Source: a virus | IMG/VR virus record: IMGVR_UViG_3300018080_000620 | Location: 1-22,661 of that record | Strand: one strand, 5' to 3' | Length of the DNA: 22,661 bases | In this document: in pieces, positions 1-19,399 of the stretch | Position numbering within the stretch: position 1 is the first letter of the stretch | How the letters are laid out: each line of letters begins with the position of its first letter | Translations under genes and position numbers: made by a program | Notes under the pieces: generated by a model | The model's database searches: none | The model's input: the letters and a program-made list of their open reading frames with translations, nothing else | Told to the model about the DNA's origin: nothing

Positions 1-2
1 AG

Positions 3-56
3 AAATGCGAAAATCTAAATTTAGAGGCAAAATTGAATGTAACGGCGTTTGCTTAA
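3..56 (+). CDS. possible 3' end of an upstream gene (partial)
   Basis: The left edge is open in the frame starting at base 3 and closes at a TAA at 54-56, giving a 17-residue tail ending VTAFA. The stop falls in the loop of the intrinsic terminator at 45-73, a common arrangement at the end of an operon. A second frame is also open from the edge and closes at the TAG at 59-61. Seventeen codons are too few to prove coding or name a family. It is included because the terminator implies that something upstream is transcribed into this point. Confidence 0.3.
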   Translation, partial: KCENLNLEAKLNVTAFA

Positions 57-73
57 ATTAGCAACCGCTTTTT
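45..73 (+). terminator. intrinsic terminator at left edge
   Basis: Bases 45-53 pair with 60-68 (GCGTTTGCT with AGCAACCGC, one T/C mismatch) around a six-base loop, followed immediately by TTTTT at 69-73. This is a standard rho-independent terminator for + strand transcription. It separates the upstream gene from the non-coding region and the packaging operon. Confidence 0.75.
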
Positions 74-95
74 ATATATTTAAAAATACTAAAAC

Positions 96-180
96 AATTC
101 AATATAAAATTACAAATAAGCATGCTCGGTTTTTCTTGGCCTTTCCGATACAAAACAAAAAACCAATCAAATATTGAATT
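96..180. repeat. 10-bp inverted repeat overlapping the RNA fold
   Basis: AATTCAATAT at 96-105 is the exact reverse complement of ATATTGAATT at 171-180. The right arm lies in the P1/P2 linker of the candidate structured RNA, so pairing would cross P1 and make a pseudoknot or an alternative conformation. A second crossing pair is TAAGCATG at 117-124 with CATGCTTA at 262-269, which competes with P4. In AT-rich DNA an eight-base pair may be chance; the ten-base one is less likely to be. Confidence 0.4.
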
Positions 181-345
181 TGAAAGACTGTTTTAGACTA
201 ATCCTTTACATAGACTCCCATATAACCCCGTGGGAGAGGATTAACCAACAAACGCCCTCCTCATGCTTAGACCAAAAAAGATTTTGATTTTAGCAGGGGG
301 TGGGAGTTGGAGCCTAAACACCTTTCACCTTCATTGATTGGTTTT
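159..345. ncRNA. candidate structured RNA with three-way junction
   Basis: No gene is visible between 74 and 485, but the inverted repeats nest into one closed fold. P1: 159-170 with 334-345, 12 perfect pairs. P2: 182-186 with 322-326, 189-193 with 316-320, and 195-196 with 314-315. P3: 199-204 with 238-243, capped by 215-220 with 231-236. P4: 245-249 with 306-310, then 255-267 with 292-303 (two G-U pairs on the + strand), capped by 273-277 with 282-286. P2, P3 and P4 meet with linkers of only one to three bases. Strand is unresolved: the G-U pairs (258/300 and 261/297) would be A-C mismatches on the - strand, favouring +. Yet a good - strand promoter lies at 378-408, and on the - strand the P1 arm runs into a T-rich tail. 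A weak + promoter (TTAAAA at 80-85, TATAAA at 103-108) also exists. I do not recognise a named RNA family. A cos/pac recognition region is an alternative. Confidence 0.5.
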
Positions 346-377
346 AGTTACAGACTCTCCAAAACTCTGGTATATGA

Positions 378-408
378 ATTATAGCATAGATGGGGGTGGT
401 ATGGTCAA
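378..408 (-). promoter_or_regulatory. possible - strand promoter (extended -10)
   Basis: Read on the - strand, TTGACC (408-403) is followed 19 bases later by TATAAT (383-378), preceded by TGC, an extended -10. Transcription would start near 371 and run leftwards through the structured region. No - strand reading frame of useful length follows, so any product would be non-coding. The spacer is slightly long, but the extended -10 could compensate. Confidence 0.4.
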
Positions 409-436
409 GTGTTTTTTAAGTGTAGTTTAATACTAT

Positions 437-464
437 TTGACAAAAAAAAAGGAAAGGATATAAT
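437..464 (+). promoter_or_regulatory. sigma70-type promoter of packaging operon
   Basis: TTGACA at 437-442 and TATAAT at 459-464 are both exact consensus hexamers, 16 bases apart. Transcription should start near 471, only about 15 bases before the first ATG at 486, so the mRNA leader is very short. The sequence just after the -10 (GAGATAAAATAAGATA, 465-480) is almost repeated after the promoter at 9957-9985, suggesting a shared regulatory signature. Confidence 0.85.
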
Positions 465-485
465 GAGATAAAATAAGATATAGAA

Positions 486-710
486 ATGGAAAAGAAAATA
501 ATAAAAAGACATAGACCAAAAACAAAAGGCAAATTAATCAAAGCTTTTCTTTATGGTAAAGTTAGATTGGAATTGTACGATAAAACTTTCTTCGTTGTGT
601 TTAAGGGGAATAAAGAAGTTTATTGGATAGAACTTGAAAAGCTTAAGGAAATAATGGAAAAATTCAAAAATGAAAAGGACAGAATTAAATTAAATAAAAT
701 ATTATCATGA
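486..710 (+). CDS. small basic hypothetical protein
   Basis: A 74-residue lysine-rich protein, first gene after the strong promoter at 437-464. The N-terminal 20 residues are very basic, the middle (about 20-50) alternates hydrophobic and charged residues as in a small beta sheet, and the C-terminus (about 50-70) looks like a charged helix. There is no transmembrane segment or cysteine pair. The ATG lies about 15 bases from the predicted transcript start with no Shine-Dalgarno sequence. Its stop overlaps the next gene's start (ATGA at 707-710). I do not recognise a family. Its position at the head of the packaging operon and its basic N-terminus would suit nucleic-acid binding, but that is inference. 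Confidence 0.65.
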   Translation: MEKKIIKRHRPKTKGKLIKAFLYGKVRLELYDKTFFVVFKGNKEVYWIELEKLKEIMEKFKNEKDRIKLNKILS

Positions 711-883
711 AAAAAACATATTCAGGCCGTGAACTTGCAAAAATAACAGGCTTGCATTACAAAACAGTTTATAATTATGTAAAGCGTGGATTACTACCAG
801 ATAGAAAGGGGGACGTTAGCGAGCATTATGTTTTTTATGAGGAGGATTTGGAGAAACTAAAAGAAATAATAAAAATTAAGTAA
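707..883 (+). CDS. MerR/excisionase-like HTH DNA-binding protein
   Basis: A 58-residue protein whose first half reads as a winged-helix HTH of the MerR/Xis (HTH_17) type: YSGRELAKITGLHYKTVYNY at residues 5-24 supplies the two helices of the HTH, followed by the VKRGLLP wing turn typical of excisionases and MerR heads. The C-terminal residues 44-58 form a short charged helix. It starts with an ATGA overlap on the preceding stop, so it is translationally coupled. Such proteins act as small transcriptional regulators or as recombination directionality factors. No integrase is visible in this window, so a regulator of the late or packaging genes is as likely as an excisionase. Confidence 0.75.
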   Translation: MKKTYSGRELAKITGLHYKTVYNYVKRGLLPDRKGDVSEHYVFYEEDLEKLKEIIKIK

Positions 884-888
884 ATATT

Positions 889-1164
889 ATGAGAAAAAGA
901 AAAAAAAGGGAAGTTTCCGGTTCTATTAAGAAACTAAAAAAGAATTTTATAGCGAAGTTAGAATTAAACGAAAATAAATACACAATGCCAACATATAATA
1001 AAATGGTATTACAAGTTAAGTTAAATCATAGCTCGTTGATTAAAACAAAAACAGAGAAAATTGAAGTAGAGGTTCTTTCAGCAAGAAAGATTGAAGGTGT
1101 AGTTTATTATGAATTTGAAGGAATGAGAGGTGTTTATTTTAACAGCAATTTATTTGTAAAATAA
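889..1164 (+). CDS. hypothetical protein, basic N-terminus
   Basis: A 91-residue protein beginning with a run of lysines and arginines (residues 2-20), followed by a region rich in alternating beta-type residues up to the C-terminus (for example KIEVEVLSARKIEGVVYYEF, about residues 57-76). No signal peptide, membrane helix or metal-binding pattern is seen. It lies five bases after the HTH gene, and its stop shares one base with the next start (TAATG at 1162-1166), so it is part of the same operon. Family not recognised. A small nucleic-acid-binding or virion accessory role is possible but unsupported. Confidence 0.6.
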   Translation: MRKRKKREVSGSIKKLKKNFIAKLELNENKYTMPTYNKMVLQVKLNHSSLIKTKTEKIEVEVLSARKIEGVVYYEFEGMRGVYFNSNLFVK

Positions 1165-1556
1165 TGCATTTAGTAAAATATAGACCAAGAAAATATAACA
1201 ATGTTAAAACGGATGGCTATGATTCAAAACTAGAAGCAAGCAGAGCCAAGGAATTAGAAGTTTGGAGGCGTGGAGGATTAATTGACCATTGGGACGCACA
1301 GGAACGCCACGAGATACGTTTAAACGGTGAATTGATAACAACATACAAAATAGACTTTGTAATCTATCACAACGGCAAAATTCACCCAAAGGGAGTCATT
1401 GAATACATCGAGACTAAAGGATATTTCGATTATGCGAGTAAATTGAGGTGGAAAATGTTTGTTGCAACCTTCCATGATGAAATTTTAAAAGGGGATGTGA
1501 TTTGTACGCTAGAAATGCAATCAAACAATTATAATTATAAAAAGTATAAAAAGTAA
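1164..1556 (+). CDS. DUF1064-family phage nuclease
   Basis: A 130-residue protein matching the pattern of DUF1064, small phage proteins with a restriction-endonuclease-like (PD-(D/E)xK) fold. Visible signatures are YDSKLEASRA (19-28) near the N-terminus, YKIDFVIY (61-68) with the catalytic-type Asp64, and YIETKGY (81-87), whose E83-x-K85 forms the expected (D/E)xK element. The length is normal for the family. DUF1064 proteins are usually found in phage replication or packaging neighbourhoods and are thought to cut branched or specific DNA; the exact substrate is not known to me. Here the gene lies about 1.2 kb upstream of the terminase genes, fitting a role in preparing DNA for packaging. Overlaps the upstream stop by one base. 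Confidence 0.8.
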   Translation: MHLVKYRPRKYNNVKTDGYDSKLEASRAKELEVWRRGGLIDHWDAQERHEIRLNGELITTYKIDFVIYHNGKIHPKGVIEYIETKGYFDYASKLRWKMFVATFHDEILKGDVICTLEMQSNNYNYKKYKK

Positions 1557-1572
1557 TTATTAAAAAACAAAC

Positions 1573-1893
1573 ATGAATGAAAAAAGGTACAAGAGGAGAA
1601 TGGAGGTTCTCAAAAAATTACCTCTCCGAGAACAAATTAGAAGATTAAAAGTTTCTTGTGGCAAATATCGCTTTGAGAATGCAAAATTAAGGAAAGAAAA
1701 CATTAAAGTTGATTATTATGTTAATGAGGGTGAAAGATTAAAACAAAACATCCAGAGACTACAAAAGCAATATTTCGATGTTAAACAAGATAGAGACACA
1801 TTAAAGAACGATAAACAGTTTTTTAGAAAAAGATATAATAGATTAAAGAAAAATTGGTTTGTTAAATTATTTTTAATTAAGAAACATGGTTAA
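1573..1893 (+). CDS. coiled-coil hypothetical protein
   Basis: A 106-residue, very basic and almost wholly helical protein. Residues 30-95 show repeating hydrophobic positions among Lys, Arg, Glu and Gln, as expected for a coiled coil (for example ERLKQNIQRLQKQY at about 54-67). The start follows an A-rich leader (AAAAAACAAAC) without Shine-Dalgarno, the usual arrangement in this window. The stop overlaps the next gene by eight bases. No enzymatic motif is present. It may be a small scaffolding or DNA-binding accessory protein; no family recognised. Confidence 0.6.
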   Translation: MNEKRYKRRMEVLKKLPLREQIRRLKVSCGKYRFENAKLRKENIKVDYYVNEGERLKQNIQRLQKQYFDVKQDRDTLKNDKQFFRKRYNRLKKNWFVKLFLIKKHG

Positions 1894-2101
1894 AAAGATC
1901 AAAAGTAGAATTATAAAGAATTATCGAACCTTTATTTTTCATGAGTTCTTAAGGTTATATAATGCTCAAATTATTGAGGGTAATTGTAAAACACAAACCA
2001 AATTCCTGGAAGATATGAAAGAAATGTATCAACTCATTGAATTACACGAAGGCGACACTTTAATATTAAAAATAGTCAATGGGCGTGCTAAAAATCAGTG
2101 A
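1886..2101 (+). CDS. hypothetical protein
   Basis: A 71-residue protein with a basic N-terminus (MVKKIKSRIIKNYR) followed by mixed helix and a short beta-like C-terminal stretch (about 57-65, TLILKIVN). There are no cysteine clusters, membrane helices or known motifs. It begins inside the end of the coiled-coil gene (eight-base overlap), and its own end overlaps the next reading frame by about 20 bases, so the three genes are tightly coupled. Family and function not recognised. Confidence 0.55.
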   Translation: MVKKIKSRIIKNYRTFIFHEFLRLYNAQIIEGNCKTQTKFLEDMKEMYQLIELHEGDTLILKIVNGRAKNQ

Positions 2102-2303
2102 GGCCGAAGCGATTTTGAAAAAATACAATTTAAAGAAGAAAAAGCCTTTAGTTTTAAAACATAAGAAAGGGCTGGACTTCTATAAAAATAGAAAACCTTT
2201 ATATAAATATTTAAAGATAGAAAAAAGGAAGATGGTTAAAGATGGTTATTTGGGTAAAATAGTAAAAGATAATGTTATTCATAAATTTTATTTACAACGA
2301 TGA
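2079..2303 (+). CDS. small lysine-rich hypothetical protein
   Basis: A 74-residue protein with about one third Lys plus Arg, which could bind nucleic acid. The ATG at 2079 lies inside the preceding gene; a GTG at 2085 in the same frame would shorten that overlap and cannot be excluded. Segment ISEAEAILKKY (about 6-16) looks helical, and the C-terminal third alternates as in a beta hairpin. The stop overlaps the next start (ATGA at 2300-2303). No family recognised. Confidence 0.55.
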   Translation: MGVLKISEAEAILKKYNLKKKKPLVLKHKKGLDFYKNRKPLYKYLKIEKRKMVKDGYLGKIVKDNVIHKFYLQR

Positions 2304-2419
2304 AAAGAAAATCATTCAAATTAAGTAAAGATGATTATAATAAAGAAAGGATAGTTTATGGTACTTTAATGATTTTAATTTGGGTTGCATTTTGTTTATT
2401 AGTAATTTTAGTAAGATGA
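2300..2419 (+). CDS. 39-residue single-pass membrane protein
   Basis: A short frame starting with an ATGA overlap on the previous stop and ending with an ATGA overlap on the small terminase start at 2416. The first 18 residues are charged and basic; residues 19-38 (IVYGTLMILIWVAFCLLVIL) form one strongly hydrophobic helix of membrane-spanning length. The coupled overlaps at both ends argue that it is real despite its size. Its function is unknown: it is too small and too early in the operon to be called a holin with confidence. Confidence 0.6.
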   Translation: MKRKSFKLSKDDYNKERIVYGTLMILIWVAFCLLVILVR

Positions 2420-2934
2420 AAGTAGATAGACACAAAGCATTTAACTTATATTGTAAAAGGAATAAAGAGACTTTTAAGTTTTACACGGTTAAAGAAGTAG
2501 CAAAAGAGCTTGATTTAAAATATTCATATTTAAAGGATGTTTCGGTAGAAATGGGATGGAGAGAGAAACGGAAAGAATGCTTAAAAAAGAGGGCTGAGAG
2601 GGCAAGAGAGTACATAACGGAAACCTCGGCAAAGATGGAAGCGGAGAATTATAAATTATTTGACCGAACCAAAAAACTCCTTATTGATTCAATGGTTCAA
2701 TTAGAAGAAAAAAGAGACAAGGACGGCAAAGTTTCGCCGTGGGCCATTAAAGAAGTTATTGAGGGCCTTGGAACCGTAAACAAAAATCAAAGAGTTATTT
2801 GTGGATTGCCGAATGAAATTAATAGGGGCGAAATTACAAATATTAATAAAGAGATTCCTTTGACAGACGAAGAGGTTAAAAAGATTGATGAAGATTTAAA
2901 AAAAGCTAATGATAAATCTGAAGTTTCTAATTGA
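2416..2934 (+). CDS. terS: terminase small subunit
   Basis: A 172-residue protein directly upstream of the large terminase. An HTH is visible at about residues 24-47 (YTVKEVAKELDLKYSYLKDV followed by EMGW), typical of small terminase subunits that recognise the packaging site. Residues 55-110 are a long charged helix suitable for oligomerisation, and the C-terminus is acidic. An upstream in-frame ATG at 2380 exists, but 2416 gives the ATGA coupling seen elsewhere in this operon and removes twelve hydrophobic residues that belong to the overlapping membrane-protein frame, so 2416 is preferred. The C-terminus overlaps the large terminase by 26 bases. Family assignment rests on the HTH plus position, not on a conserved catalytic motif. 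Confidence 0.8.
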   Translation: MKVDRHKAFNLYCKRNKETFKFYTVKEVAKELDLKYSYLKDVSVEMGWREKRKECLKKRAERAREYITETSAKMEAENYKLFDRTKKLLIDSMVQLEEKRDKDGKVSPWAIKEVIEGLGTVNKNQRVICGLPNEINRGEITNINKEIPLTDEEVKKIDEDLKKANDKSEVSN

Positions 2935-4432
2935 AAAATATGGTTATGAAACTACAAGAAAATATCTACAAAAGAGATTCTCGCAAAAGACGCCGGAAGC
3001 TTTTTGGGAATTTTCAAGGTTTTGTTATGGCGATAAAATGGGGGATGAAACCCCTTTTTTTCATCGTGAGATTGTTAATGATCTTATTAAAGATAATGAT
3101 GGGAATTGTGGCCGTATTGCTCGTGGCGCACCGAGAGGGGGGGCAAAATCAACACTAATCGGAACGCTTTATTTAAGTTGGTTAGCTTTAAATGGATTCT
3201 TTAATCATATTCTTTACGTCTCCGACACGGCCGATAAAGCCGTCGCACTTTCAAGTCCATTAAGAAAACAAATAGAAACAAATAGGCATATTAAATTTTT
3301 ATACCCAAACGCAAAAAGTAAAGATACATGGGGAAAAGAGGCATATATTGTTAATGGGCTAAATGGTGCTTGTTTGATTAAGCCTATTGGACAGGGTAAA
3401 AATGTGAGAGGTACTAGTGAAGATAACATAAGGCCGGAGTTTGCGATTTTGGATGATTTGGAAAATCTTGAACTTGTATATTCAAGAGACCGAAGAAAGA
3501 AATTGAAGCAATGGCTTGATTTTGATTTAGAGCCGGCAATGGATAGGTATCATAAAAATATAGTTTATGTTGGGACAATTTTACATTATCATTCACTACT
3601 TAACCAAGTAATAAATAAAAAAGGGAAATATAAATCTTGGAATACTAAATTATATAAGGCTATTGAGAATGGTAAAAGTTTTTGGGAAAGTAGGTTTTCA
3701 ATGGACTATTTAAAGGCTATAAGAGATGACCCAAACCATGAGGATTATGTTGGTTCAATTGTTTTTTCCCAAGAATTTCAAAACGAACCACAGGACGAGA
3801 AAGATAGAATCATACAAACTCACTGGCTTAAAACATATAATCTTATTGAGACAATTAACAAAAGACCGGAGAAAACACCACAGGCTAAAGAGAAAGGATT
3901 TTTAGATGAATTAGATGTTTATGGAGCAGTTGACCCCGCTATCAGTGAAAAGGCCACAGCCGATAATTTCGCTTTGTATATTTTCGGTTATAACAGAAAG
4001 ACAGCAAAAGAATACATGCTTGATTGTGTGGTTATCAAATCAAACGATCCGGAAGAACACACAAGGCTTTGTGTTGATCGGATTATTCGGTGGGGATGTA
4101 TCAAGTTTGGAGTTGAAGCGGTGCAATATCAAGCCGGCTTAAAAACCATGATTAGAAACGCTTTGAATAAAAAAGCTTATTATAAATGCCGTGTCGTTAA
4201 GATAAAAACTAATAAAGACAAGATACAACGGGCAAGAATCCACTCGGCACAATTCCAAGCAGGATTAATCTTATTGCGGGAAGAGCATAAAAATTATAAT
4301 ATATTAAGTAATGAAATTTTAGAGTTTCCATTAGGTGAACATGATGACACTTTTGACTCTTTAATGCTTGCCAGGGAGACCCGCCAAAAATCAAGAAAAA
4401 AGAGAACTTTTAAAGACAATCCATTAAAATAA
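2909..4432 (+). CDS. terL: terminase large subunit
   Basis: A 507-residue packaging motor: an N-terminal ATPase that drives DNA into the prohead and a C-terminal RNase H-like nuclease that cuts concatemers. Visible motifs are Walker A ARGAPRGGAKST (71-82), Walker B FAILDD with the following LEN (178-186), and the coupling motif VGTILH (221-226). The nuclease domain shows VYGAVDPAIS (337-346) with Asp342, Glu403 in GVEAVQYQAG, and the acidic cluster GEHDDTFDSL (476-485). Length and order are normal for the family. It overlaps the small subunit by 26 bases, and the portal gene follows after four bases, the usual packaging cluster. Confidence 0.95.
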   Translation: MINLKFLIEKYGYETTRKYLQKRFSQKTPEAFWEFSRFCYGDKMGDETPFFHREIVNDLIKDNDGNCGRIARGAPRGGAKSTLIGTLYLSWLALNGFFNHILYVSDTADKAVALSSPLRKQIETNRHIKFLYPNAKSKDTWGKEAYIVNGLNGACLIKPIGQGKNVRGTSEDNIRPEFAILDDLENLELVYSRDRRKKLKQWLDFDLEPAMDRYHKNIVYVGTILHYHSLLNQVINKKGKYKSWNTKLYKAIENGKSFWESRFSMDYLKAIRDDPNHEDYVGSIVFSQEFQNEPQDEKDRIIQTHWLKTYNLIETINKRPEKTPQAKEKGFLDELDVYGAVDPAISEKATADNFALYIFGYNRKTAKEYMLDCVVIKSNDPEEHTRLCVDRIIRWGCIKFGVEAVQYQAGLKTMIRNALNKKAYYKCRVVKIKTNKDKIQRARIHSAQFQAGLILLREEHKNYNILSNEILEFPLGEHDDTFDSLMLARETRQKSRKKRTFKDNPLK

Positions 4433-8962: not shown

Positions 8963-9898
8963 ATGGCCTCAACTAGACCAGTATGGAAGGGTGATAATAC
9001 GGACTTTGTGCCGGAAATTATCGCTACTTTCGCCCTTGATAAATTGGTTGGCGAGTTTCAACTTGCAAACTTTTTTACAAAAGACACTGATTGGGAACCA
9101 GTACAAGAAGGTGAAACTTTGAAAATTAGAAAAAGAGGAGCTTTCACCACAAAGCAAAAAGCTTTTAACACAGATTACGCACTTCAAGACCCTGGAACTG
9201 ATAGAGTTTCAGTAACCTTGGATCAACATTGGTACGTTTCTTTTGCGATTGACGACATTTTGGAGACAGTCAAAAAAGGAAATACCGCACCTCTTGAGGA
9301 GTATCTTGAGGACGCTATTAAAACTTTAGCTGAAAGAATTGAAACTAATCTTGCAGAGGAAATTTCTAACTTAACCAATACGGTTGGAAGTGCGGGAGTA
9401 AGCATTACAGACAGTTTGGTTTTGCTACCAGCTAGAAAAACTTTAGCTACTAACAAAACTCCTTTAACACCTCGTGGAATGTTTTTGCACCCAGAGCAAA
9501 CAAACGATGTTTTGGCATTAGACAAGTTTACGACAGTCGAAAAATATGGAAGTGCTAAACCTATTCTTGAAGGTGAACTTGGTAAAATTTACGGAGCTAA
9601 CACCGCTGAAAACGTTTATCTTCCAAGCGGTACAACTTCACCGACTCCTCTTTATGGATTCGTTGGACACCCTCACGCTATCATTTTCGCTACTCGACCA
9701 ATCAAGAGTGCAATGAATATGCTTGCTAACGGAAAGAACAACGGAAGAATCCAATTTGACATGGAAAAAGATGGATTCATCATAAGAGTCACAATTTTCC
9801 CTAACGATTCTAAAGGTTACACACAATGTAATGTTGAAGCTCTTTGGGGAACAGCAGTTTTGAGAGACGAAGTTGGAGTAAGAATTATATCTAGCTAA
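8963..9898 (+). CDS. major capsid protein
   Basis: A 311-residue protein after the scaffold gene, the usual place and length for an HK97-fold coat protein. The N-terminal half (for example DPGTDRVSVTLDQHWYVSFA, about 75-94) resembles the P22 gp5-like coat group: an extended N-arm and E-loop region followed by a helix (ETVKKGNTAPLEEYLEDAIK). The C-terminal part ends with a beta-rich segment (RVTIFPNDSKGYTQCNVEAL and following). No delta domain or cleavage site is obvious, agreeing with a separate scaffold protein. The coat subunits build the icosahedral shell. The ATG has an A-rich leader (AAAATAAAACC). A terminator region follows at once. Confidence 0.88.
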   Translation: MASTRPVWKGDNTDFVPEIIATFALDKLVGEFQLANFFTKDTDWEPVQEGETLKIRKRGAFTTKQKAFNTDYALQDPGTDRVSVTLDQHWYVSFAIDDILETVKKGNTAPLEEYLEDAIKTLAERIETNLAEEISNLTNTVGSAGVSITDSLVLLPARKTLATNKTPLTPRGMFLHPEQTNDVLALDKFTTVEKYGSAKPILEGELGKIYGANTAENVYLPSGTTSPTPLYGFVGHPHAIIFATRPIKSAMNMLANGKNNGRIQFDMEKDGFIIRVTIFPNDSKGYTQCNVEALWGTAVLRDEVGVRIISS

Positions 9899-9907
9899 TC
9901 TTAATTT

Positions 9908-9916
9908 TGCTATAAT
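9908..9916 (+). promoter_or_regulatory. extended -10 promoter after capsid gene
   Basis: TGC followed by a perfect TATAAT (9911-9916) and GGG. No good -35 is seen at the normal distance, but the TGn element can replace it. Transcription would begin near 9922, at the base of the small hairpin TGTAAG (9922-9927) / CTTACA (9938-9943), and stop at the terminator at 9950-9971, giving an RNA of about 50 bases. Confidence 0.5.
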
Positions 9917-9949
9917 GGGACTGTAAGCCCGACTAAACTTACAAACATT

Positions 9950-9971
9950 AAGACCCTTGACGGGTCTTTTT
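9950..9971 (+). terminator. intrinsic terminator after major capsid gene
   Basis: AAGACCC (9950-9956), loop TTGAC, GGGTCTT (9962-9968) running into further Ts to 9971. A perfect seven-pair stem that ends the capsid operon. The loop plus the first stem base (TTGACG, 9957-9962) is also the -35 box of the next promoter. Confidence 0.85.
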
Positions 9972-9985
9972 GTTATGGTTATAAT
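9957..9985 (+). promoter_or_regulatory. promoter of cargo operon, -35 inside terminator loop
   Basis: TTGACG at 9957-9962 and TATAAT at 9980-9985, spacer 17 bases. Transcription should begin near 9992, about 20 bases before the ATG at 10013. The downstream bases GGGATAAAGTAAGATA (9986-10001) nearly match those after the promoter at 437-464 (two A/G differences). Confidence 0.8.
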
Positions 9986-10012
9986 GGGATAAAGTAAGAT
10001 AATAGAAAAAGC

Positions 10013-10850: not shown

Positions 10851-13800
10851 ATGCTATTTTATCTAGTCGGAAAGTCGGGGAGGATTAGGGAGTTAAACAT
10901 CTCCCACGAACACAAAAACGAATTATTAAAAGCAGGGTATCGAATGGCTAACCCTAAAGAGAGAGTTGATTTTATCCATGAACGAATCAAAAGAAATAAA
11001 AAGAAATTCGCAGAACTTAAACGTAAATATCCTGATTTTATGGATGTGCATTTTCTTTGTGGCTCGAGGATTAACGACGGTTACGGTGTGACTTCAAAAT
11101 TGTTAGCAAGAGAGCTTGAAAAGAATAATATATTTTTGAATAGAGAATTAAACGGTCAAAAGGTAGGTTTAATTTATTCTTATCCATACATGATCGACAG
11201 GCTTCAAACTCCGTATAAGATTATTTACACCATGTTTGAAAGCTCAAAAATGCCTGATGATTGGGGTGAGTATTTGAGGAAAGCAAACCTTGTTATTGTC
11301 CCTAGTGAATTTTGTAGGATGTCAATGTTAAATCAATTCGGGATTGACCCCGTTGTAATCCCGTTAGGATATGACCAAGAAGTTTATAAATTTGTAAAAA
11401 GAAAAAGAGACCAGAGAAAAGACCCTTTCACATTCTTACATTATGATGCTTTTAAAAACCGTAAAGGATGGGATTTGATATTGAAAGCTTTTAATGAGGA
11501 GTTTGGAAAAACCGATTTTGTTAAGCTTATTTTTAAGACAACTTTAAAGCAAGCGGTTCCATTAGATTATGACAATATCGAGACTATCAAGGGAGATTTT
11601 GGCAATGATGAGATGATGAAGTTAATAGGTAAAGCGGATTGTTTTGTTTACCCTTCTCGAGGTGAAGGGTTTGGATTGCCACCACTTGAAGCTATGGCTA
11701 CAGGAATACCAACAATCCAACCACGACAGCATGGATTAGGGCAATATTTCAATCACAATGTGATGTATAAAGTCAATACAAAACCATGCAAAGCGGTTTT
11801 CGCAAATCCTCACTTTGATGAGATGGATTTAGGAGTTATGAGAAATTGTAGTGTTAAATCTTTGAGGTCAAAAATGCGTTTGGCTTATGATGATTGGAAA
11901 GCTAATAGAAAACCATTTAGAACCCCTTTTAATATTCACCAGCACGCTAGAAATTACACAATCGCAAAGACAGGGGGGAAATTAGCCGATTTAATTAAGA
12001 AAGAGACCACAGAGCATTTTGAGAGCAAGAACAAGATTGTATTTCTAACCGAGGACACTGAACACATCACGGGGGGCCGTTATTATTCTTGGTGGCTAGC
12101 CACGGCTTTAAAAGCTATAGGATATGATGTTGTTATTTATACTAATCGAATACCGGCGTTTATTGATGATTTTCTCGCTTACCCCCAACCTCGTGTAAAA
12201 ATTGTTAATTCTCTTTTACACGTAGATACTCCGGCGAAGATGTATTTTGGAAGCCCAATTTTGGGGAGTACACAAGCTTGTAAACTTGGTGAGAAATATA
12301 ACAAACCTGTCTATTGTGAGATTTTTGACCCGTTCCCAATGATGGAGCATTGGAAAGATCAAGGTCATCACCCAACTTGGAATGAGTTAATCCCATTAAT
12401 GAAAAATAAAAGAGTCAATATTATTTCACTTTGTGAATATGCTAATAGATGGATTTATGATTGGTTGAACAAGAGGAAAGGGCAAGTTAAAGTGATTAGC
12501 CCTTGTATCAATTCAAAGGCTAAAGATCAGGCGAAGCAAAAGAAAAAGAAGGATTGGGCGGTTTTTGTATCGAGACTTTGCACACACAAAAATATTGACC
12601 ATGTTCTTGACGCAATTAAAAAAACAAATTTAGACTTGCATATTATTACAAGTGTCGATGAGGTTGAAGTTGATAAAATGATTAAAGAGCGTGGAATGGA
12701 GGACAGGGTTAAAATTCATTGGTTTATTAGCGATGTTGAAAAGTTTGAATTAATAAAACAGGCAAAAGTCACAATTAACGCTTCAAGCTTTGAGGGTTAT
12801 GGGATGTTTATTAGTGAGTCTTTAGCTTGTAAGGTTCCTGTTGTTTGTTACGATTATCCGACTTTTAGAGAGATTGCAAGTGAATTTAGAAACCAGAAAT
12901 TCATATATTTTGCAGACTATAATAAAAAAGACAGTTTAAAAAATGCACTAAATACATGCTTAAAAGACGAAGAAATAAGAAGGGAACGGTTAAAATGTAT
13001 TGAAGATGCGGTTTTTAAACAATGGGATTTCAAGATAATGAAACATCAATTGAAATATAACTTACATAAAAATGTTACTGATTTAAAAATAGGTGTTGTT
13101 ATGTGTGTTTTGAATGAGGAGAAATTCGTCAAGTCTAGTTTACGATCTGTTATCAAACATAGCAATATTGAAAAGGTGGCCGTTGTAGAGGGTTGTGTGA
13201 CCTTAAATGAAGGAAACGCCAATCAACAAGGATTAAGCCTTGACAATACCGCAAAAGAAATTTGTAAAGTTATCAATGAGGAAAACGGAAGAAAGATTAT
13301 TTATGATCGTTATGGATGGGCTGGTAGTAAATCAGAGCTTAGAAACCACGCCCTTAAAATGCTTGGTGACGATATGGATTATATTTTGGTTGTTGACGGT
13401 GACGAGGTTTACAAACAGATTGATCTTGATAAATTAGTAGGCTCGATGATCGAAAATCCTGATGCCACAGTTTTTAAGATTAAGCATTTGCATTTTTGGA
13501 AAGACGGAAAGACTTTGACGGTTGGGTCGATGTGGGATGCTTATTTATTCAGATGTTTTAAATATGAAGATAAAACACTCCATTGGGAGCGTCACGAAGC
13601 CCCCGTTGTTAGTCGAGACGGTGAAAGTGTAGAAACTTTGGGAAAAGTGGTAGAATTTAAAAAAGTGTTCGTTTATCATTATGGCTATATGAAAAGCAAC
13701 GATGAGGTAAAAGCCAAGATTGATTATTATAAAAAACGAGACTTAAAACTAACTGTTAAAGATACTTATTCATCATGGAAAAAAGGAGAAGAAACCCAAC

Positions 13801-13874
13801 CAACTCATCAGGGAGGAACGATAAAAAAATTCAAAGGAACTCACCCGCCAGAGATGAGGGGCTTAATTTTATAG
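10851..13874 (+). CDS. three-domain glycosyltransferase (GT4-GT4-GT2)
   Basis: A 1007-residue protein with three glycosyltransferase units. GT4-like domain 1 spans about 65-385; its sugar-nucleotide signature is YPSRGEGFGLPPLEAMATG (267-285), with the E272 and E280 pair. GT4-like domain 2 spans about 395-735, with ASSFEGYGMFISESLACKVP (644-663) as the matching motif. A GT2-like domain spans about 745-960: IGVVMCVLNEEKFVKSSLRS (747-766), then YILVVDGDEVY (844-854) with the Asp849/Asp851 metal-binding pair. The first 50 residues form a separate unassigned element. There is no membrane segment, so it should act in the cytoplasm. With the downstream dehydratase and methyltransferases it probably builds a short glycan on a phage or host acceptor. 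Three fused domains suggest three ordered transfers. Acceptor unknown. Confidence 0.9.
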   Translation: MLFYLVGKSGRIRELNISHEHKNELLKAGYRMANPKERVDFIHERIKRNKKKFAELKRKYPDFMDVHFLCGSRINDGYGVTSKLLARELEKNNIFLNRELNGQKVGLIYSYPYMIDRLQTPYKIIYTMFESSKMPDDWGEYLRKANLVIVPSEFCRMSMLNQFGIDPVVIPLGYDQEVYKFVKRKRDQRKDPFTFLHYDAFKNRKGWDLILKAFNEEFGKTDFVKLIFKTTLKQAVPLDYDNIETIKGDFGNDEMMKLIGKADCFVYPSRGEGFGLPPLEAMATGIPTIQPRQHGLGQYFNHNVMYKVNTKPCKAVFANPHFDEMDLGVMRNCSVKSLRSKMRLAYDDWKANRKPFRTPFNIHQHARNYTIAKTGGKLADLIKKETTEHFESKNKIVFLTEDTEHITGGRYYSWWLATALKAIGYDVVIYTNRIPAFIDDFLAYPQPRVKIVNSLLHVDTPAKMYFGSPILGSTQACKLGEKYNKPVYCEIFDPFPMMEHWKDQGHHPTWNELIPLMKNKRVNIISLCEYANRWIYDWLNKRKGQVKVISPCINSKAKDQAKQKKKKDWAVFVSRLCTHKNIDHVLDAIKKTNLDLHIITSVDEVEVDKMIKERGMEDRVKIHWFISDVEKFELIKQAKVTINASSFEGYGMFISESLACKVPVVCYDYPTFREIASEFRNQKFIYFADYNKKDSLKNALNTCLKDEEIRRERLKCIEDAVFKQWDFKIMKHQLKYNLHKNVTDLKIGVVMCVLNEEKFVKSSLRSVIKHSNIEKVAVVEGCVTLNEGNANQQGLSLDNTAKEICKVINEENGRKIIYDRYGWAGSKSELRNHALKMLGDDMDYILVVDGDEVYKQIDLDKLVGSMIENPDATVFKIKHLHFWKDGKTLTVGSMWDAYLFRCFKYEDKTLHWERHEAPVVSRDGESVETLGKVVEFKKVFVYHYGYMKSNDEVKAKIDYYKKRDLKLTVKDTYSSWKKGEETQPTHQGGTIKKFKGTHPPEMRGLIL

Positions 13875-13888
13875 TCACAAATAAAAAT

Positions 13889-14023
13889 ATGTTTGAAAAA
13901 CAAGTAAATGAGGCTTTACATCTTTCAATATTTCAATTAACCGTTGGCTTTGTGATTTTATATTGGCGAATCATTTTAGTTGTAATGGTTATTGTGATGT
14001 TGTCGGTTTTAGCTTTAAAATAA
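13889..14023 (+). CDS. 44-residue membrane protein
   Basis: Starting at ATG 13889, the frame encodes a short polar N-terminus and one long hydrophobic stretch (about residues 14-42, VILYWRIILVVMVIVMLSVL at about 22-41), enough for a transmembrane helix. The same frame is open upstream to 13775, but that would overlap the glycosyltransferase by 100 bases with a low-quality sequence, so 13889 is preferred. It sits between the glycosyltransferase gene and the Shine-Dalgarno cassette. It may be a small membrane anchor or holin-like peptide; nothing more can be said. Confidence 0.5.
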   Translation: MFEKQVNEALHLSIFQLTVGFVILYWRIILVVMVIVMLSVLALK

Positions 14024-14028
14024 AGCAA

Positions 14029-14036
14029 AAGGAGGA
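14029..14036 (+). promoter_or_regulatory. strong Shine-Dalgarno site before 14042
   Basis: AAGGAGG ends about six bases before the ATG at 14042. Matching sites precede the next genes: GGAGG at 14214-14218 (ATG 14226), GAGGAGG at 14441-14447 (ATG 14452) and GAGGAGG at 14596-14602 (ATG 14610). Elsewhere in the window starts mostly have A-rich leaders instead, so this marks a cassette with different translation signals. Confidence 0.75.
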
Positions 14037-14041
14037 TCAAA

Positions 14042-14242
14042 ATGGACAGGTATGGAAGGTCGAAAAATTCGATGAAATTCGATGTTACTTGCGACGAGTG
14101 CAAGAAAAAAACAAACATCGGGTTTCCTTGGAAGGATGGAACGTATTGCATTAAATGTTGGACAACCGCAAGAGAAAAGGAGGTTGGAATAATTGGGGGC
14201 ACAGATCTTATCATGGAGGCCGTCTATGGCAAAAAAGAATAA
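14042..14242 (+). CDS. double-CxxC small protein 1 of cassette
   Basis: A 66-residue protein with CDEC (about 17-20) and CIKC (about 36-39) joined by a stretch holding FPWKDGTY, a zinc-ribbon or LIM-like arrangement. It shares the pattern CxxC, aromatic-x-Gly turn, CxxC and following Trp or basic residues with the proteins at 14452 and 14610, indicating common descent. A strong Shine-Dalgarno precedes it. Its end overlaps the HNH gene. Such proteins may bind DNA, RNA or a partner protein; linked nuclease suggests nucleic acid. Not a known named family to me. Confidence 0.7.
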   Translation: MDRYGRSKNSMKFDVTCDECKKKTNIGFPWKDGTYCIKCWTTAREKEVGIIGGTDLIMEAVYGKKE

Positions 14243-14495
14243 GAAACAGGTGTATGGTGTTTGCCCTAGATGTTTTGAACTTCATTATCTTCAAAAACAT
14301 CATGTTCTCCCAAGGTTCCAGTACGGAGACAATCCACACAAAATATATTTGTGTCATGATTGCCACCTTGATCTACATAGATTACTGGGACAGAGGAAAA
14401 GAACACAGGCAAGCTTTTACAAAATCACTAGAGATTATGTGAGGAGGAACAATGAAAACGGAAGTGAAGGTTTACGTTCTTATCGGAAACCGTAA
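14226..14495 (+). CDS. HNH-type endonuclease
   Basis: An 89-residue protein with a zinc-stabilised HNH pattern: CPRC (13-16), then the KHHVLP core (His25/His26), an Asn in GDNPHK, and the second zinc pair with catalytic-type His in LCHDCHLDLHRLL (about 42-54). The start at ATG 14226 lies seven bases after GGAGG. A TTG at 14193 in the same frame, also behind AAAAGGAGG, would add eleven residues and cannot be ruled out. The end overlaps the following gene by 44 bases. HNH enzymes cut DNA in homing, packaging or defence. Here it lies apart from the terminase and within a cassette of different translation style, so a mobile or accessory nuclease is more likely than a packaging one. Confidence 0.8.
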   Translation: MAKKNKKQVYGVCPRCFELHYLQKHHVLPRFQYGDNPHKIYLCHDCHLDLHRLLGQRKRTQASFYKITRDYVRRNNENGSEGLRSYRKP

Positions 14496-14613
14496 ATGCA
14501 ACCAGTGTTTTGAAACCCATACATTCAATTTGAGAATGGGTAATTGGGCAATATGCTGGGACTGTTGGAAAAAACGACAGATTGCGGAAATAGCAGAGGA
14601 GGTTGATAAATGA
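14452..14613 (+). CDS. double-CxxC small protein 2 of cassette
   Basis: A 53-residue protein with CNQC (16-19) and CWDC (35-38), separated by 15 residues that include LRMGNWAI, followed by WKKRQ. Same layout as the proteins at 14042 and 14610. It starts behind GAGGAGG within the HNH gene and ends with its stop overlapping the next ATG (ATGA at 14610-14613). The acidic tail (AEIAEEVDK) differs from its relatives. Zinc-binding is inferred from the cysteines only. Confidence 0.65.
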   Translation: MKTEVKVYVLIGNRKCNQCFETHTFNLRMGNWAICWDCWKKRQIAEIAEEVDK

Positions 14614-14783
14614 ATGTTAGTTGTCCGATGCTAAAAAAAGAGCAATGCAGTGTTTGCGGTAAGACGCTTGATAGGTGGTGGTATATTGGAGATGAAACAT
14701 TTTGCAGAATTTGCAAGGGGACGATAAGAAATGAAGAAAAAGCGTTCAAAGCGGAGGAAGCAACGGAAAAAGAAGGCACTTAA
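14610..14783 (+). CDS. double-CxxC small protein 3 of cassette
   Basis: A 57-residue protein with CSVC (13-16) and CRIC (32-35), with the linking stretch RWWYIGDETF and a lysine/glutamate-rich C-terminus. The third copy of the pattern seen at 14042 and 14452. The ATG is seven bases after GAGGAGG. It ends three bases before the membrane protein at 14787. Together the three proteins and the HNH nuclease form a compact cassette of about 740 bases. Function unknown. Confidence 0.65.
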   Translation: MNVSCPMLKKEQCSVCGKTLDRWWYIGDETFCRICKGTIRNEEKAFKAEEATEKEGT

Positions 14784-14786
14784 ACA

Positions 14787-15062
14787 ATGGAGAATCTGGA
14801 GAAGGCCGATAAAAACATCGAGGTGATTGGATGGATAGCTTTTGGGGTTAGTGTGTGTGCGATCGGTAGCATATTTGATCAAATATTTAAAAATATTGAT
14901 GGTCAAGTTTGCTCGGTTCCTATGGCGTTTATGTTATTTCTTAATGCGAGTTTGTGGCTACTTTATTTTATAAAGTCAAACATTCGCAAAAAGAAAATAC
15001 TGATAATTCAGTCATTCGCCATAATCACACATGCTATAAACACTATTACCGCTTTATTTTAG
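14787..15062 (+). CDS. SemiSWEET-like three-helix membrane protein
   Basis: A 91-residue protein with three hydrophobic helices at about 12-32, 44-63 and 70-90, the size and layout of bacterial SemiSWEET/PQ-loop sugar transporters, which work as dimers. IGWIAFGVSVCAIGSIFDQI followed by FKNIDG recalls the family's first helix (usually ...SYIPQI...N..G), and LNASLWLLYF recalls its second (..INC.LWV.YG). However, the usual PQ is replaced by Asp-Gln and the conserved Asn of the third helix is not evident, so transport activity is doubtful. The resemblance is by eye only. A holin-like function is the main alternative. It follows the Shine-Dalgarno cassette but has only a weak site itself. Confidence 0.55.
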   Translation: MENLEKADKNIEVIGWIAFGVSVCAIGSIFDQIFKNIDGQVCSVPMAFMLFLNASLWLLYFIKSNIRKKKILIIQSFAIITHAINTITALF

Positions 15063-15069
15063 GGAGACC

Positions 15070-15094
15070 GGGGGAACTCCTTAAATATTCCCCC
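15070..15094 (+). other. GC-rich hairpin between membrane-protein genes
   Basis: GGGGGAA (15070-15076) pairs exactly with TTCCCCC (15088-15094) around an 11-base loop. It starts eight bases after the SemiSWEET-like stop and lies 23 bases before the next ATG. There is no T-run after it, so intrinsic termination is doubtful; it may mark the right edge of the inserted cassette or protect the mRNA end. Confidence 0.45.
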
Positions 15095-15117
15095 TACAAT
15101 AAATATTAAAAACAAAC

Positions 15118-15291
15118 ATGATAAGCAAACCAAAAAACATTGACGATTATAAAATAAAAATGAATATTCCAATCTTAATTTTGTTAGCCATTGTTATATT
15201 TAGTATTTTTTATATATCCGATTTACACCAAACAATACATTGCTATAAAACTATAGATAGAGACGATTGTAATAAAGTTTTTAACAAATAA
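15118..15291 (+). CDS. 57-residue membrane-anchored protein
   Basis: A short gene behind the leader AAAAACAAAC. Residues 1-15 are charged and polar, residues 16-34 (NIPILILLAIVIFSIFYIS) form a transmembrane helix, and the tail (35-57) is polar with two cysteines (HCYK and DDCN) that could form a disulfide outside the membrane. It ends two bases before the methyltransferase gene. It could be a small envelope or lysis-accessory (spanin- or holin-like) protein, but no motif decides this. Confidence 0.55.
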   Translation: MISKPKNIDDYKIKMNIPILILLAIVIFSIFYISDLHQTIHCYKTIDRDDCNKVFNK

Positions 15292-15293
15292 TT

Positions 15294-15767
15294 ATGAAAA
15301 AAATCAATTTAGGATGTGGCCTTAAACAAGAAAAAGGATATATAAATTGTGATTCAAGAGCTGACGTTAACCCCGACAGAGTTTTTGATATAACAAATAG
15401 TTTTCCGTTTATAGATAATTCGATAGATGAGGTTAGGGCAATATCTGTTTTTGAGCATATTAGTAAATGGGAAAAGGGGAATGTTTTTCATGAATGTCAC
15501 CGAGTGTTAAAGAAAGATGGCCATTTAATAATCTCGATTCCCAACATGCTAGAATTATCAAATAACCTTTTGACTTTAAATAAAGAAGAGTTGTTTATCA
15601 ACTTTATTTATGGAGAGCAAGATTATAAAGAAAACCAGCATAAATGGGGGTGGACACCAACAACAATTGAGGAGGATTTGAAGATTGCGGGATTTAAGAA
15701 AATCTACGTTAACCCAAAATTTAATCATCGCTATAATGGCGAGATGTTTATAAAAGCTAAAAAATAA
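15294..15767 (+). CDS. SAM-dependent methyltransferase (class I)
   Basis: A 157-residue protein with the SAM-binding motif I INLGCG (4-9), the acidic end of the second strand at YINCD (16-20), and the later HRVLKKDGHLIISIPN segment (about 69-84) that is typical of small methyltransferases found in glycan gene clusters. It is shorter than most class I enzymes (about 200 or more) but keeps the core. It is likely to methylate a sugar or glycan intermediate, given the glycosyltransferase upstream and the dehydratase downstream; the acceptor is not visible from sequence. Two-base gap from the membrane-protein gene. Confidence 0.82.
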   Translation: MKKINLGCGLKQEKGYINCDSRADVNPDRVFDITNSFPFIDNSIDEVRAISVFEHISKWEKGNVFHECHRVLKKDGHLIISIPNMLELSNNLLTLNKEELFINFIYGEQDYKENQHKWGWTPTTIEEDLKIAGFKKIYVNPKFNHRYNGEMFIKAKK

Positions 15768-15782
15768 TTATTAATTGAAAAA

Positions 15783-15983
15783 ATGGCTAAAAATGAAATA
15801 GTAGTAAAAACAAAAGACGTTGTAAAAAATTTAAACGCAATAAGGTATTTGGTTGATGAGGTAATTGACATTTCTACGAAGTTTATTGACAAAGTAGAAT
15901 CCGATAAAGCAAGAAGCATTGAAACATATAGGGATTTAGTGGGACTAAGGAAACTTGCAATTAAGATTAAAAAAAATGTATAA
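15783..15983 (+). CDS. small hypothetical protein
   Basis: A 66-residue, mostly helical, charged protein without cysteines, membrane segments or known motifs. Repeating hydrophobic positions in residues 10-45 suggest a helical bundle or oligomer. Its stop overlaps the start of the FkbM methyltransferase (ATG at 15976), so the two are coupled. It may be a partner of the methyltransferase or unrelated. Confidence 0.55.
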   Translation: MAKNEIVVKTKDVVKNLNAIRYLVDEVIDISTKFIDKVESDKARSIETYRDLVGLRKLAIKIKKNV

Positions 15984-16578
15984 AAAATTTCATTCACAAT
16001 TTGGGGAAGATAAACACATTCGAGAAACATTTTATTCTGATTATTCGGAAGATGGTGTTTTCGTAGATATTGGAGCCGGACACCCAACAAAATTATCAAA
16101 CAGTTATCACTTTGAAAGAAACGGCTGGGATGGTATTTGTATTGATGCCGATTCAAGAAGGATTAAGGAGCTTATGGACAAAAGAGATTGTGAGGTCATA
16201 GATGCAGTCATAACAAAAGATCGTAGAGAGGTGTTTTTTTATCAACATCCAGAACAACCAGACATTTCAAGAATTAATGTAAAAGATAATGGGATTGGAC
16301 ACAAAAGAAAGTCAATTAGGATTGAGGATATTTTAGAAGATTTTGGAATAAAGAAAATAGACCTTCTTTCAATAGATGTTGAAGGTTTTGAATTAGAGGC
16401 GTTGGAAAGCTTTGAACTTGAAAAACATAAGCCGGAAGTGATAATTGTTGAATTTTTAACATTAAAAAATGACAGGTCTTTTGAGATTGAAAAATGGTTT
16501 AATACGAATGCTAAAAATTACTTTCAATTCGACAAAACAACTGCTAATTTAATTTATAAAAGAAATAATAAAAAATAA
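15976..16578 (+). CDS. FkbM-family methyltransferase
   Basis: A 200-residue protein with the FkbM pattern: FHSQFGEDKHI (5-15), then VFVDIGAGHP (28-37) for SAM binding, GWDGICIDAD (50-59), and DLLSIDVEGFELEALESF near residues 128-145, the signature DxEG segment of the family. FkbM-type enzymes O-methylate sugars and other small acceptors and are frequent in surface-glycan clusters. The start at 15976 is chosen over the in-frame TTG at 15955, because 15976 gives an ATG with A-rich leader and a short overlap with the previous stop. The gene lies between the other methyltransferase and the GDP-mannose dehydratase, supporting a role in sugar decoration. Confidence 0.88.
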   Translation: MYKKFHSQFGEDKHIRETFYSDYSEDGVFVDIGAGHPTKLSNSYHFERNGWDGICIDADSRRIKELMDKRDCEVIDAVITKDRREVFFYQHPEQPDISRINVKDNGIGHKRKSIRIEDILEDFGIKKIDLLSIDVEGFELEALESFELEKHKPEVIIVEFLTLKNDRSFEIEKWFNTNAKNYFQFDKTTANLIYKRNNKK

Positions 16579-16580
16579 AC

Positions 16581-17594
16581 ATGAAAACAAAAAAAGCTTT
16601 AATCACTGGAGCAACCGGCCAAGATGCTTCATACTTAATCGAATTATTATTAAAAAAAGGATATAAGATTTATGGAATTGATAGGCGAGTTTCTGTAAAT
16701 AAATATTGGAGGCTTGACGATGTTTATAGCAAAGTTGAATTTATAAACGCCGATTTAACCGATCAAACAAGCCTCTTTAATGCGGTCAAAAAGTGTATGC
16801 CAGATGAGATTTATAATTTAGGGGCAATGAGTCACGTTGGATATTCTTTTGAGGTTCCTATTTATACAGCCCAAGCGACAGGATTAAGCGTTTTATATCT
16901 TCTTGAAGCCATTAAAACATTAAAGCCGGATTGTAAGTTTTATCAAGCCTCAACCAGTGAATTATTTGGAGATGTCAAAGAAACACCCCAAACAGAAAAG
17001 ACACCGTTTAATCCTCAATCACCTTACGCAGTAGCCAAACAATTTGGGCATGAGATGGTTAAATTGTACCGTCAAGGACACGGAATTTTTGCATGTAGCG
17101 GTATTTTATTTAATCACGAATCACCAAGAAGAGGGGAGGATTTTGTTACACAAAAGATAGTTAAAGGGGTTGCTAATTATGTGAAGAATGGCGAGACTTT
17201 TTGCTTAGGTAATTTAGATGCAAAAAGAGATTGGGGACATGCCAAAGATTATGTTAGAGCAATGTATTTGATGATGCAAAAAGATATTCCTGATGATTTC
17301 GTTGTTTCTTCTTGCCGAACGTTTACAGTAAGAGATTTTTTTAGATTAGTTTGTGTACAATTCGGTTTAGGATTAAGATTCGAAGGGAAAGGGATAAATG
17401 AGGTAGTCTTTGATAAATATAGCTCATCGGCTATAATGAGAGTAGATGAAAAATTTTATAGACCTTGTGAGGTTAATTCGTTGATTGGTGATTGCTCAAA
17501 GGCAAAAAATGAACTGAAATGGAAAAGAAAATATAACATATATGAGCTTGTAAAAGATATGTGTGACGCTGAAAAACTAAAATACAAACTTTAA
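16581..17594 (+). CDS. gmd: GDP-mannose 4,6-dehydratase
   Basis: A 337-residue short-chain dehydrogenase-type enzyme converting GDP-D-mannose to GDP-4-keto-6-deoxymannose, precursor of fucose, rhamnose, perosamine and related sugars. Motifs in order: LITGATGQDASYL (7-19) for NADP, with Ala at the third glycine position; NLGAMSHVGYSFEVP (79-93); YQASTSELFG (121-130) with Thr125 and Glu127; SPYAVAK (147-153) with Tyr149 and Lys153; FNHESPRRGEDFVTQKI (177-193); LGNLDAKRDWGHAKDYV (209-225). All catalytic residues of the family are present and length is normal, so it should be active. No reductase or epimerase acting on its product is seen here, so the host or another phage region would complete the sugar. 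A-rich leader AAAAAATAAAC before ATG. Confidence 0.95.
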   Translation: MKTKKALITGATGQDASYLIELLLKKGYKIYGIDRRVSVNKYWRLDDVYSKVEFINADLTDQTSLFNAVKKCMPDEIYNLGAMSHVGYSFEVPIYTAQATGLSVLYLLEAIKTLKPDCKFYQASTSELFGDVKETPQTEKTPFNPQSPYAVAKQFGHEMVKLYRQGHGIFACSGILFNHESPRRGEDFVTQKIVKGVANYVKNGETFCLGNLDAKRDWGHAKDYVRAMYLMMQKDIPDDFVVSSCRTFTVRDFFRLVCVQFGLGLRFEGKGINEVVFDKYSSSAIMRVDEKFYRPCEVNSLIGDCSKAKNELKWKRKYNIYELVKDMCDAEKLKYKL

Positions 17595-17602
17595 AATAAA
17601 AA

Positions 17603-18322
17603 ATGGCACTAATAACAATACCAACCCATCCTGACGCTGATAGTTACGGGACACTTGAAGAGGCTGACGCCCATTTTGAAAATAGGGGCGATGTAAGCGA
17701 TTGGGACGATGCAACTGACGACCTTAAAGAGGCGGTTTTGAAATATGCAACCGATCAAATCGAGTCTATGCGTTTCAGATATGGAAAAGTTGTTGCTTGT
17801 CCGATGTATTATCGAAGAGAACAAGAACTAAAATTTCCTCAAAACGTCGACCCTTCAAGAACTGTTACACCTTCCGAGGTGGGGAGTAATTACTTTAAAT
17901 CAACATCTCTTGCCGATCTTTCAACCATGCCTGACGATTATTGGAATAATGGTTGTGCAATCGTCACAGACGGAGTGGGAAAAGGAGAAACTTATTTGAT
18001 AACAGATTTTGATTATTTAACCGGTAAAGTAACAATTGATGGGAGTTGGACAACAACCCCGAACACTTCAAGCTCGATTATGATTGTTTATAGAGTTTTA
18101 GATAATGTTAAGAAAGCCCAATTTGAACAAGCTTTATATTTGATTCAAGGAGGAGGAGAACGCCAGAAATTGCAAGCCGAGGGAGTAGTTGAATTTAAGC
18201 TTGATGAACTTTGGGAAAAATACAGAGACGGAAATTTTAACGCCGGGAGAATGCCTATTTGTTCAACTGCTAAAGGCTATTTGAGAGGCCTTTACGTTAA
18301 TATTGGTAAACTTTTAAGATGA
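17603..18322 (+). CDS. head-tail connector protein (DnaT-like phage family)
   Basis: A 239-residue protein beginning PTHPDADSYGTLEEADAHFE (8-27), which matches the N-terminus of phage connector proteins annotated as DnaT-like or gp15-like adaptors, and returning to the same fold in the C-terminal helices (KKAQFEQALYLIQGGGERQK, about 172-191). In between, residues about 90-165 form a beta-rich insert (CAIVTDGVGKGETYLITDFD, about 113-132) that looks like an added surface domain and makes the protein longer than the usual 170-200. Such connectors bind below the portal. It resumes the morphogenesis block after the cargo region. Its stop overlaps the next start by four bases. Confidence 0.78.
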   Translation: MALITIPTHPDADSYGTLEEADAHFENRGDVSDWDDATDDLKEAVLKYATDQIESMRFRYGKVVACPMYYRREQELKFPQNVDPSRTVTPSEVGSNYFKSTSLADLSTMPDDYWNNGCAIVTDGVGKGETYLITDFDYLTGKVTIDGSWTTTPNTSSSIMIVYRVLDNVKKAQFEQALYLIQGGGERQKLQAEGVVEFKLDELWEKYRDGNFNAGRMPICSTAKGYLRGLYVNIGKLLR

Positions 18323-19012: not shown

Positions 19013-19399
19013 ATGGCAATAAAAAACATATTATCAAATTTAAGGACGTATTTAATCAATGAAGGCTTTGAAAATGTTTTTATTGGTCAAATGCCTGAAA
19101 AAGCCGATGATTGCATTTTGATTACACAAGAAGGCGGAGAGCCTGACATTTACATCCCTGTTAGAACTCACACTATTCAAATATTAGTTAGAAACCAAAG
19201 TTCAAGATCGGCTTATGATACAAGTTATGAGATTTATGAGAAATTGCACAGAAAATATGATGATTTTGTTTTGGTAGTAGGTGGCGTTGACGTGATGCTT
19301 AGTGATGCCATTACAGAACCCCAACAAATCGGAATTGACCAAACAGACCGCTTTATTTATTCAACAAATTTTAATTTTATGATTCGACAAGATGATTAA
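19013..19399 (+). CDS. tail terminator / minor capsid protein
   Basis: A 128-residue protein resembling the phage minor-capsid/tail-terminator group (Minor_capsid_3-like). It shows an N-terminal helix (LSNLRTYLINEGF), then NVFIGQMPEKADDCILITQE (about 21-40), where the MPxxxxxxI pattern is characteristic, a strand pair (THTIQILVRNQS), the helix YDTSYEIYEKLHRK, and a C-terminal strand series. Tail terminators form a hexamer that stops tail-tube growth and binds the neck. Its order between the gp10-like gene and the tail tube is as expected. The stop overlaps the Com-like gene by eight bases. Confidence 0.78.
   Translation: MAIKNILSNLRTYLINEGFENVFIGQMPEKADDCILITQEGGEPDIYIPVRTHTIQILVRNQSSRSAYDTSYEIYEKLHRKYDDFVLVVGGVDVMLSDAITEPQQIGIDQTDRFIYSTNFNFMIRQDD

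Follow-up and report, generated by a model that had tools for sequence, protein, structure and literature searches.

Positions 159-345 of this phage DNA carry no gene, lie ahead of the packaging genes and pair with themselves extensively, which raises the question of whether the locus encodes an RNA, acts as DNA or serves packaging. An earlier note had described it as nested inverted repeats in one non-conflicting fold and had proposed a phage non-coding RNA or a recognition region for DNA packaging. The window analysed here is an entire IMG/VR record of 22,661 bases, without end repeats. The late module that it contains comes from a siphovirus-like phage, and all recognised genes run rightward. 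TerL is of the nuclease type (phrog_38) and is located about 2.5 kb downstream of the element; the portal protein is SPP1-type, and the further late genes comprise minor and major head proteins, a scaffold, and siphovirus neck and tail genes. The TerS assignment is probable, being based on position and on a match to the ORF directly 5′ of TerL in relatives.

Several other features of the late module were recorded. In its middle, a glycan gene block (10851-17594) encodes a 1007-aa multi-domain glycosyltransferase, two methyltransferases, one of them FkbM, and a GDP-mannose 4,6-dehydratase. A 60-aa zinc ribbon at 19392-19571 matched Mu-like Com (PF10122, E 2.4e-8), and the TerL of this phage is also similar to that of Mu-like Pseudomonas phages. 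The gene at 17603-18319 is DnaT-like according to Pfam and head-tail adaptor Ad1 according to PHROGs; its position favours the adaptor, and the Pfam name may mislead annotation.

The 187 bases of the element form a single closed three-way junction of 67 pairs, with junction linkers of 2, 1 and 3 nt (Table 1). The helices had been described correctly in the earlier note, including the perfect pairing of P1 and the linkers of one to three bases; its estimate of about 55 pairs captured the extensive pairing and fell short of the actual count. Folding beyond chance, also claimed there, was confirmed by shuffling on both strands: the free energy was −62.0 kcal/mol on the plus strand (z −6.08) and −63.2 kcal/mol on the minus strand (z −4.99), with none of 200 shuffles equal in either case. 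The flanks at 62-158 and 346-436 had z-scores near 0, and shuffling the flanks only did not weaken the fold; because the flanks contribute nothing, the borders at 159 and 345 are real. The G+C content is 39% in the element versus 27% and 34% in the two flanks. This is the strongest non-coding fold in the window, and its sole equal, at 14841-15030, lies within an ORF. That second region is strongly folded on both strands (z −5.7 on the minus and −4.5 on the plus strand), and its ORF encodes a 91-aa membrane protein with weak AmiS/UreI and sugar-transporter (MtN3) matches.

Table 1. Coordinates of the structured element, its helices and the neighbouring signals.
Feature	Position	Strand	Details
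Hairpin with T-run	44-76	+	−10.8 kcal/mol; 9 of 1000 shuffles as good
U-rich stretch just past P1 (TTTTTTGTTTTG..)	146-158	−	From sequence; possible RNA end
Structured element, closed three-way junction P1-P4, candidate ncRNA body	159-345	− (from promoter)	MFE and shuffles, helix list
P1	159-170/334-345		12 perfect pairs
P2	175-178/330-333, 181-186/322-327, 189-193/316-320, 195-196/314-315		Interrupted
P3	199-205/237-243 plus 215-221/230-236		
P4	245-249/306-310, 253-259/296-302, 264-267/292-295, 269-271/288-290, 273-277/282-286		
Putative leftward promoter, TTGACC-19-TGC-TATAAT, extended −10	378-408	−	Matrix scan; expected start near 371
Putative late-operon promoter, TTGACA-16-TATAAT	437-464	+	12/12 match; top-scoring site of the window
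Late operon start	486-4429	+	74-aa ORF, helix-turn-helix gene, resolvase-like gene, probable TerS, TerL

In agreement with the earlier description of the region as gene-free, no ORF longer than 37 aa was found in 159-345. On the minus strand, AGGAGG is followed by a TTG-started frame of 16 codons within 198-248, probably by chance. The Rfam covariance models, scanned over 1-3000 up to E = 1, gave no match for the element among GOLLD, ROOL, 6S, riboswitch, ribozyme and intron families, and the phi29 packaging RNA (pRNA) model (RF00044) found nothing in the same range; the comparison with large phage RNAs and pRNA suggested earlier was thus negative. Imperfect repeats are present at 88-105, 159-174 and 333-348. 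The segment 88-103 could substitute for 159-170 in pairing with 333-348, and 96-105 is perfectly complementary to 171-180; therefore, two mutually exclusive closing helices are possible. An outer stem extending the RNA to 110-436 on the plus strand was discarded, since the flanks performed equally well when shuffled.

To locate promoters, both strands of the whole window were scanned with a self-written, E. coli-like matrix, in which the extended −10 bonus and the spacer weights were our own choice. Among 865 candidate sites, the leftward site at 378-408 ranked second, back to back with the top-ranked late-operon site. Sites as good as 378-408 occurred on average 0.1 times per shuffled window and in none of 2000 shuffles of 346-436 on the minus strand. 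Its spacer of 19 exceeds the usual length, and the site is missing from the output of a standard scanner, which covers spacers of 16-18. In the relative L021, the top promoter site is at the same place as 437-464. Since the late operon has its own promoter there, the late message begins downstream of the element and does not include it.

On the other side of the element, the hairpin at 44-76 overlaps the stop codon of a probable rightward gene, whose frame is open from 2 to 61. Its stem has one mismatch and was not listed by a simple scanner; judged from its sequence, it should end rightward transcription ahead of 159-345. No good rightward promoter was found in 77-158, where the best −10 ranks 231st of 865. 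The U-rich stretch at 146-158 weakly suggests a possible RNA end, as this genome is rich in A and similar T-tracts occur frequently on its minus strand. The scanner detected no compact GC-rich stem with a T-run, the form of an intrinsic terminator, in 1-600 on either strand. No compact terminator was seen past P1 on the minus strand, unlike the classic one past the capsid gene. The latter (AAGACCC..GGGTCTTTTT) is located at 9898-10012, 3′ of the capsid gene, in a region that also has strong promoter-like sites, with TATAATGGGA occurring twice.

These signals bear on a transcriptional insulator, a large hairpin that would stop or stall either leftward transcription from 378-408 or rightward read-through between modules. 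The inter-module position and the U-rich stretch past P1 on the minus strand are consistent with such a function. However, the compact stem and T-run of the capsid-gene terminator have no counterpart here, and a three-way junction exceeds what a terminator needs, so that we consider an insulator improbable.

The promoter and terminator signals favour a leftward RNA of approximately 226 nt. The stability of the fold points the other way: the inner arms (199-310) had a z-score of −4.8 on the plus strand versus −2.0 on the minus strand, where they are less certain (pair probabilities of about 0.4-0.6), 135-407 reached z −5.0 on the plus strand, and the plus-strand ensemble is better defined. Because the inner arms are more stable on the plus strand, the U-stretch is unremarkable and no compact minus-strand terminator is present, we infer the minus strand from the promoter and terminator signals rather than consider it demonstrated. 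The earlier note had assumed the plus strand, which agrees with the inner arms and disagrees with the promoter and terminator signals.

The same structured RNA could instead be made from the plus strand, either as a small RNA whose promoter, weak or specific to the phage, would lie in 77-115, or as a 3′-UTR structure of read-through mRNA from the upstream genes. Each sub-part is stable alone on that strand, and this possibility would also suit the better-defined ensemble and the rightward orientation of all recognised genes, but the terminator-like hairpin upstream and the low rank of the best rightward −10 make it fairly unlikely.

Alignment searches with the portal protein, TerL and the 74-aa ORF as queries identified about 20 related phages, whose identity in portal, TerL or both is roughly 38-60%. 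A homologue of the element was absent from all of them. Four relatives (L035, L021, L004 and L040) retain the helix-turn-helix gene near the operon start, and the 74-aa gene ahead of it is also present in L035, L021 and, by eye, L004. In these four phages, the syntenic place directly upstream is occupied by rightward genes and no such element is found, as expected for an inserted accessory gene. A covariance model built from the single sequence recovered only the element itself as significant in 556 kb of relatives (58 loci) and nothing in 14 whole contigs, the latter run without a positive control. The blastn search revealed no homologue of the element in phages or plasmids, and a search of genome contigs yielded no relatives. 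Furthermore, exact patterns of its terminal inverted repeats and junction yielded no genuine copy in IMG/VR. The junction-pattern matches were rejected as coding sequence and chance. One match with an inverted-repeat pair of element-like spacing (L063, 1-220) was also rejected, because coding sequence folds back there almost perfectly at the end of a contig; the match probably arose as an artefact of assembly or amplification and imitates a terminal inverted repeat. In another phage locus (L036), the non-coding gap at 1183-1298, directly 5′ of the probable TerS gene, holds a long GC-rich hairpin, possibly a packaging site or a terminator.

The distribution of the element allows two further readings to be weighed. 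A mobile or decayed, MITE-like repeat would account for the terminal inverted repeats and for the absence from the four syntenic relatives. However, the element occurs as a single copy in the window, the inverted-repeat pattern gave one fold-back match and no genuine copy in IMG/VR, and no target-site duplication is visible; a chance fold is excluded by the z-scores. Taken together, a repeat of this kind or a chance fold is quite improbable. Alternatively, the inverted repeats might act as DNA, in a replication origin or a recombination or regulator-binding region. The fold is significant on both strands, the adjoining flank is AT-rich (27% G+C), and the motif AAAACcAATCAA is found at 91 and 159 and inverted at 334, all compatible with a DNA-level site. 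In contrast, no GC-skew turn was found at the element, leaving an origin without skew support, there is no iteron array, nested arms of differing sequence exceed the needs of a DNA palindrome, and the four relatives with the same late genes lack the element. We therefore regard a DNA-level site as unlikely.

A packaging function was the other proposal of the earlier note. The 174-nt pRNA of phi29, itself a phage RNA, has paired ends and contains a three-way junction (PMC11476376, PMC12670572), and 159-345 resembles it in size, closed ends, and a junction with two arms, 2.5 kb upstream of TerL. Since pRNA sequences are highly variable (PMC12670572), the missing RF00044 match alone is not decisive. 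However, pRNA has been described as unique to phi29-like phages (PMC11476376), in which it accompanies gp16/gp10 and paired loops (PMC12670572). Neither a gp16-type ATPase nor a gp10-type connector was found in the record, which is a fragment; TerS/TerL and an SPP1-type portal are present instead. The left and right loops of phi29 pRNA pair by 3-4 nt with a GG/CC core, whereas the apical loops of the element (AUAACCCC and AAGA) show no such pairing. A contact of just 2 bases is conceivable between the internal-loop GGA (303-305) and CC in the loop of P3, as is expected by chance. The ordinary TerS/TerL, SPP1-type portal and siphovirus neck and tail genes make a phi29-type packaging RNA unlikely, and the unpaired arm tips and the element-less relatives with the same packaging proteins argue against a packaging role in general. 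A packaging RNA or packaging recognition site is accordingly the least probable of the readings considered, and this part of the earlier proposal was not supported.

A second closed three-way junction was found in the relative L002, at 1673-1772 (about 100 nt), with −37.7 kcal/mol and z −5.2 on the plus strand. Like 159-345, it is non-coding, lies upstream of TerL (about 1.5 kb) and has a long closing helix and two arms; it differs in being half the size, in its unrelated sequence and in its junction linkers. It matched neither Rfam nor the covariance model of 159-345, and no strong promoter is located near it. A kissing interaction is possible between its two hairpin loops, through GAAGA in one and UCUUC in the other (a few percent by chance). 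Because sequence, size and linkers differ, common origin of the two elements is not established. They might nevertheless represent a divergent class of closed three-way-junction RNAs upstream of TerL, conserved like pRNA in shape only and with a function in a TerS/TerL phage such as binding to the packaging motor or to host RNA polymerase; we consider this joint reading, roles included, very improbable. If the two did form such a class, the role of shape-conserved RNAs in phages with an ordinary terminase would become a question in its own right.

The reading that we tentatively prefer, as possible as it is short of probable, is a free-standing, lineage-specific gene for a structured, trans-acting ncRNA with its own promoter, inserted at the boundary that separates the late operon from the genes upstream of it. 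The non-coding RNA proposed earlier thus remains the best interpretation, partly supported by the folding, the sharp ends, the lack of a gene and the promoter. The promoter of its own that such a gene should have is present as a sequence signal. Leftward transcription would begin near 371 at the extended −10 promoter and copy 159-345; the two RNA ends would pair via P1/P2 and seal the three-way junction and its two arms, and the RNA may terminate near or beyond the U-rich 158-146. If rightward transcription from upstream is halted at about 76 and the late operon begins at about 471, neither rightward message would include the element. With its ends sealed, the small RNA would be stable and may act in trans, on a factor of the host or the phage. 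We infer transcription, 3′ end and function of this candidate RNA as we do its strand. Antisense action on the late operon was also considered and rejected: an 11-nt match links 268-278 with 512-522, but several other 11-mers match elsewhere, and antisense duplex energies were unremarkable.

GOLLD and ROOL are structured ncRNA genes, some of them phage-borne; they are several hundred nt long and conserved, in contrast to the 187 nt of this element, which has no relatives and no Rfam match. Both belong to the large, ornate phage-associated RNAs (PMC12286853). A parallel in arrangement is offered by the accessory ‘moron’ loci of phages (PMC7067206), which are likewise extra transcription units amid core genes, with an apparent promoter of their own, and are missing from relatives at the same place. 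‘Moron’ loci are usually protein genes in prophages, whereas here the candidate is an RNA with predicted expression, in a phage with no lysogeny evidence. On present evidence, the element is an orphan candidate. If transcribed, it would add a small structured RNA, not described before, to a siphovirus group about which little is known, and would indicate that RNA genes, like protein genes, can insert at the boundary before the late operon.
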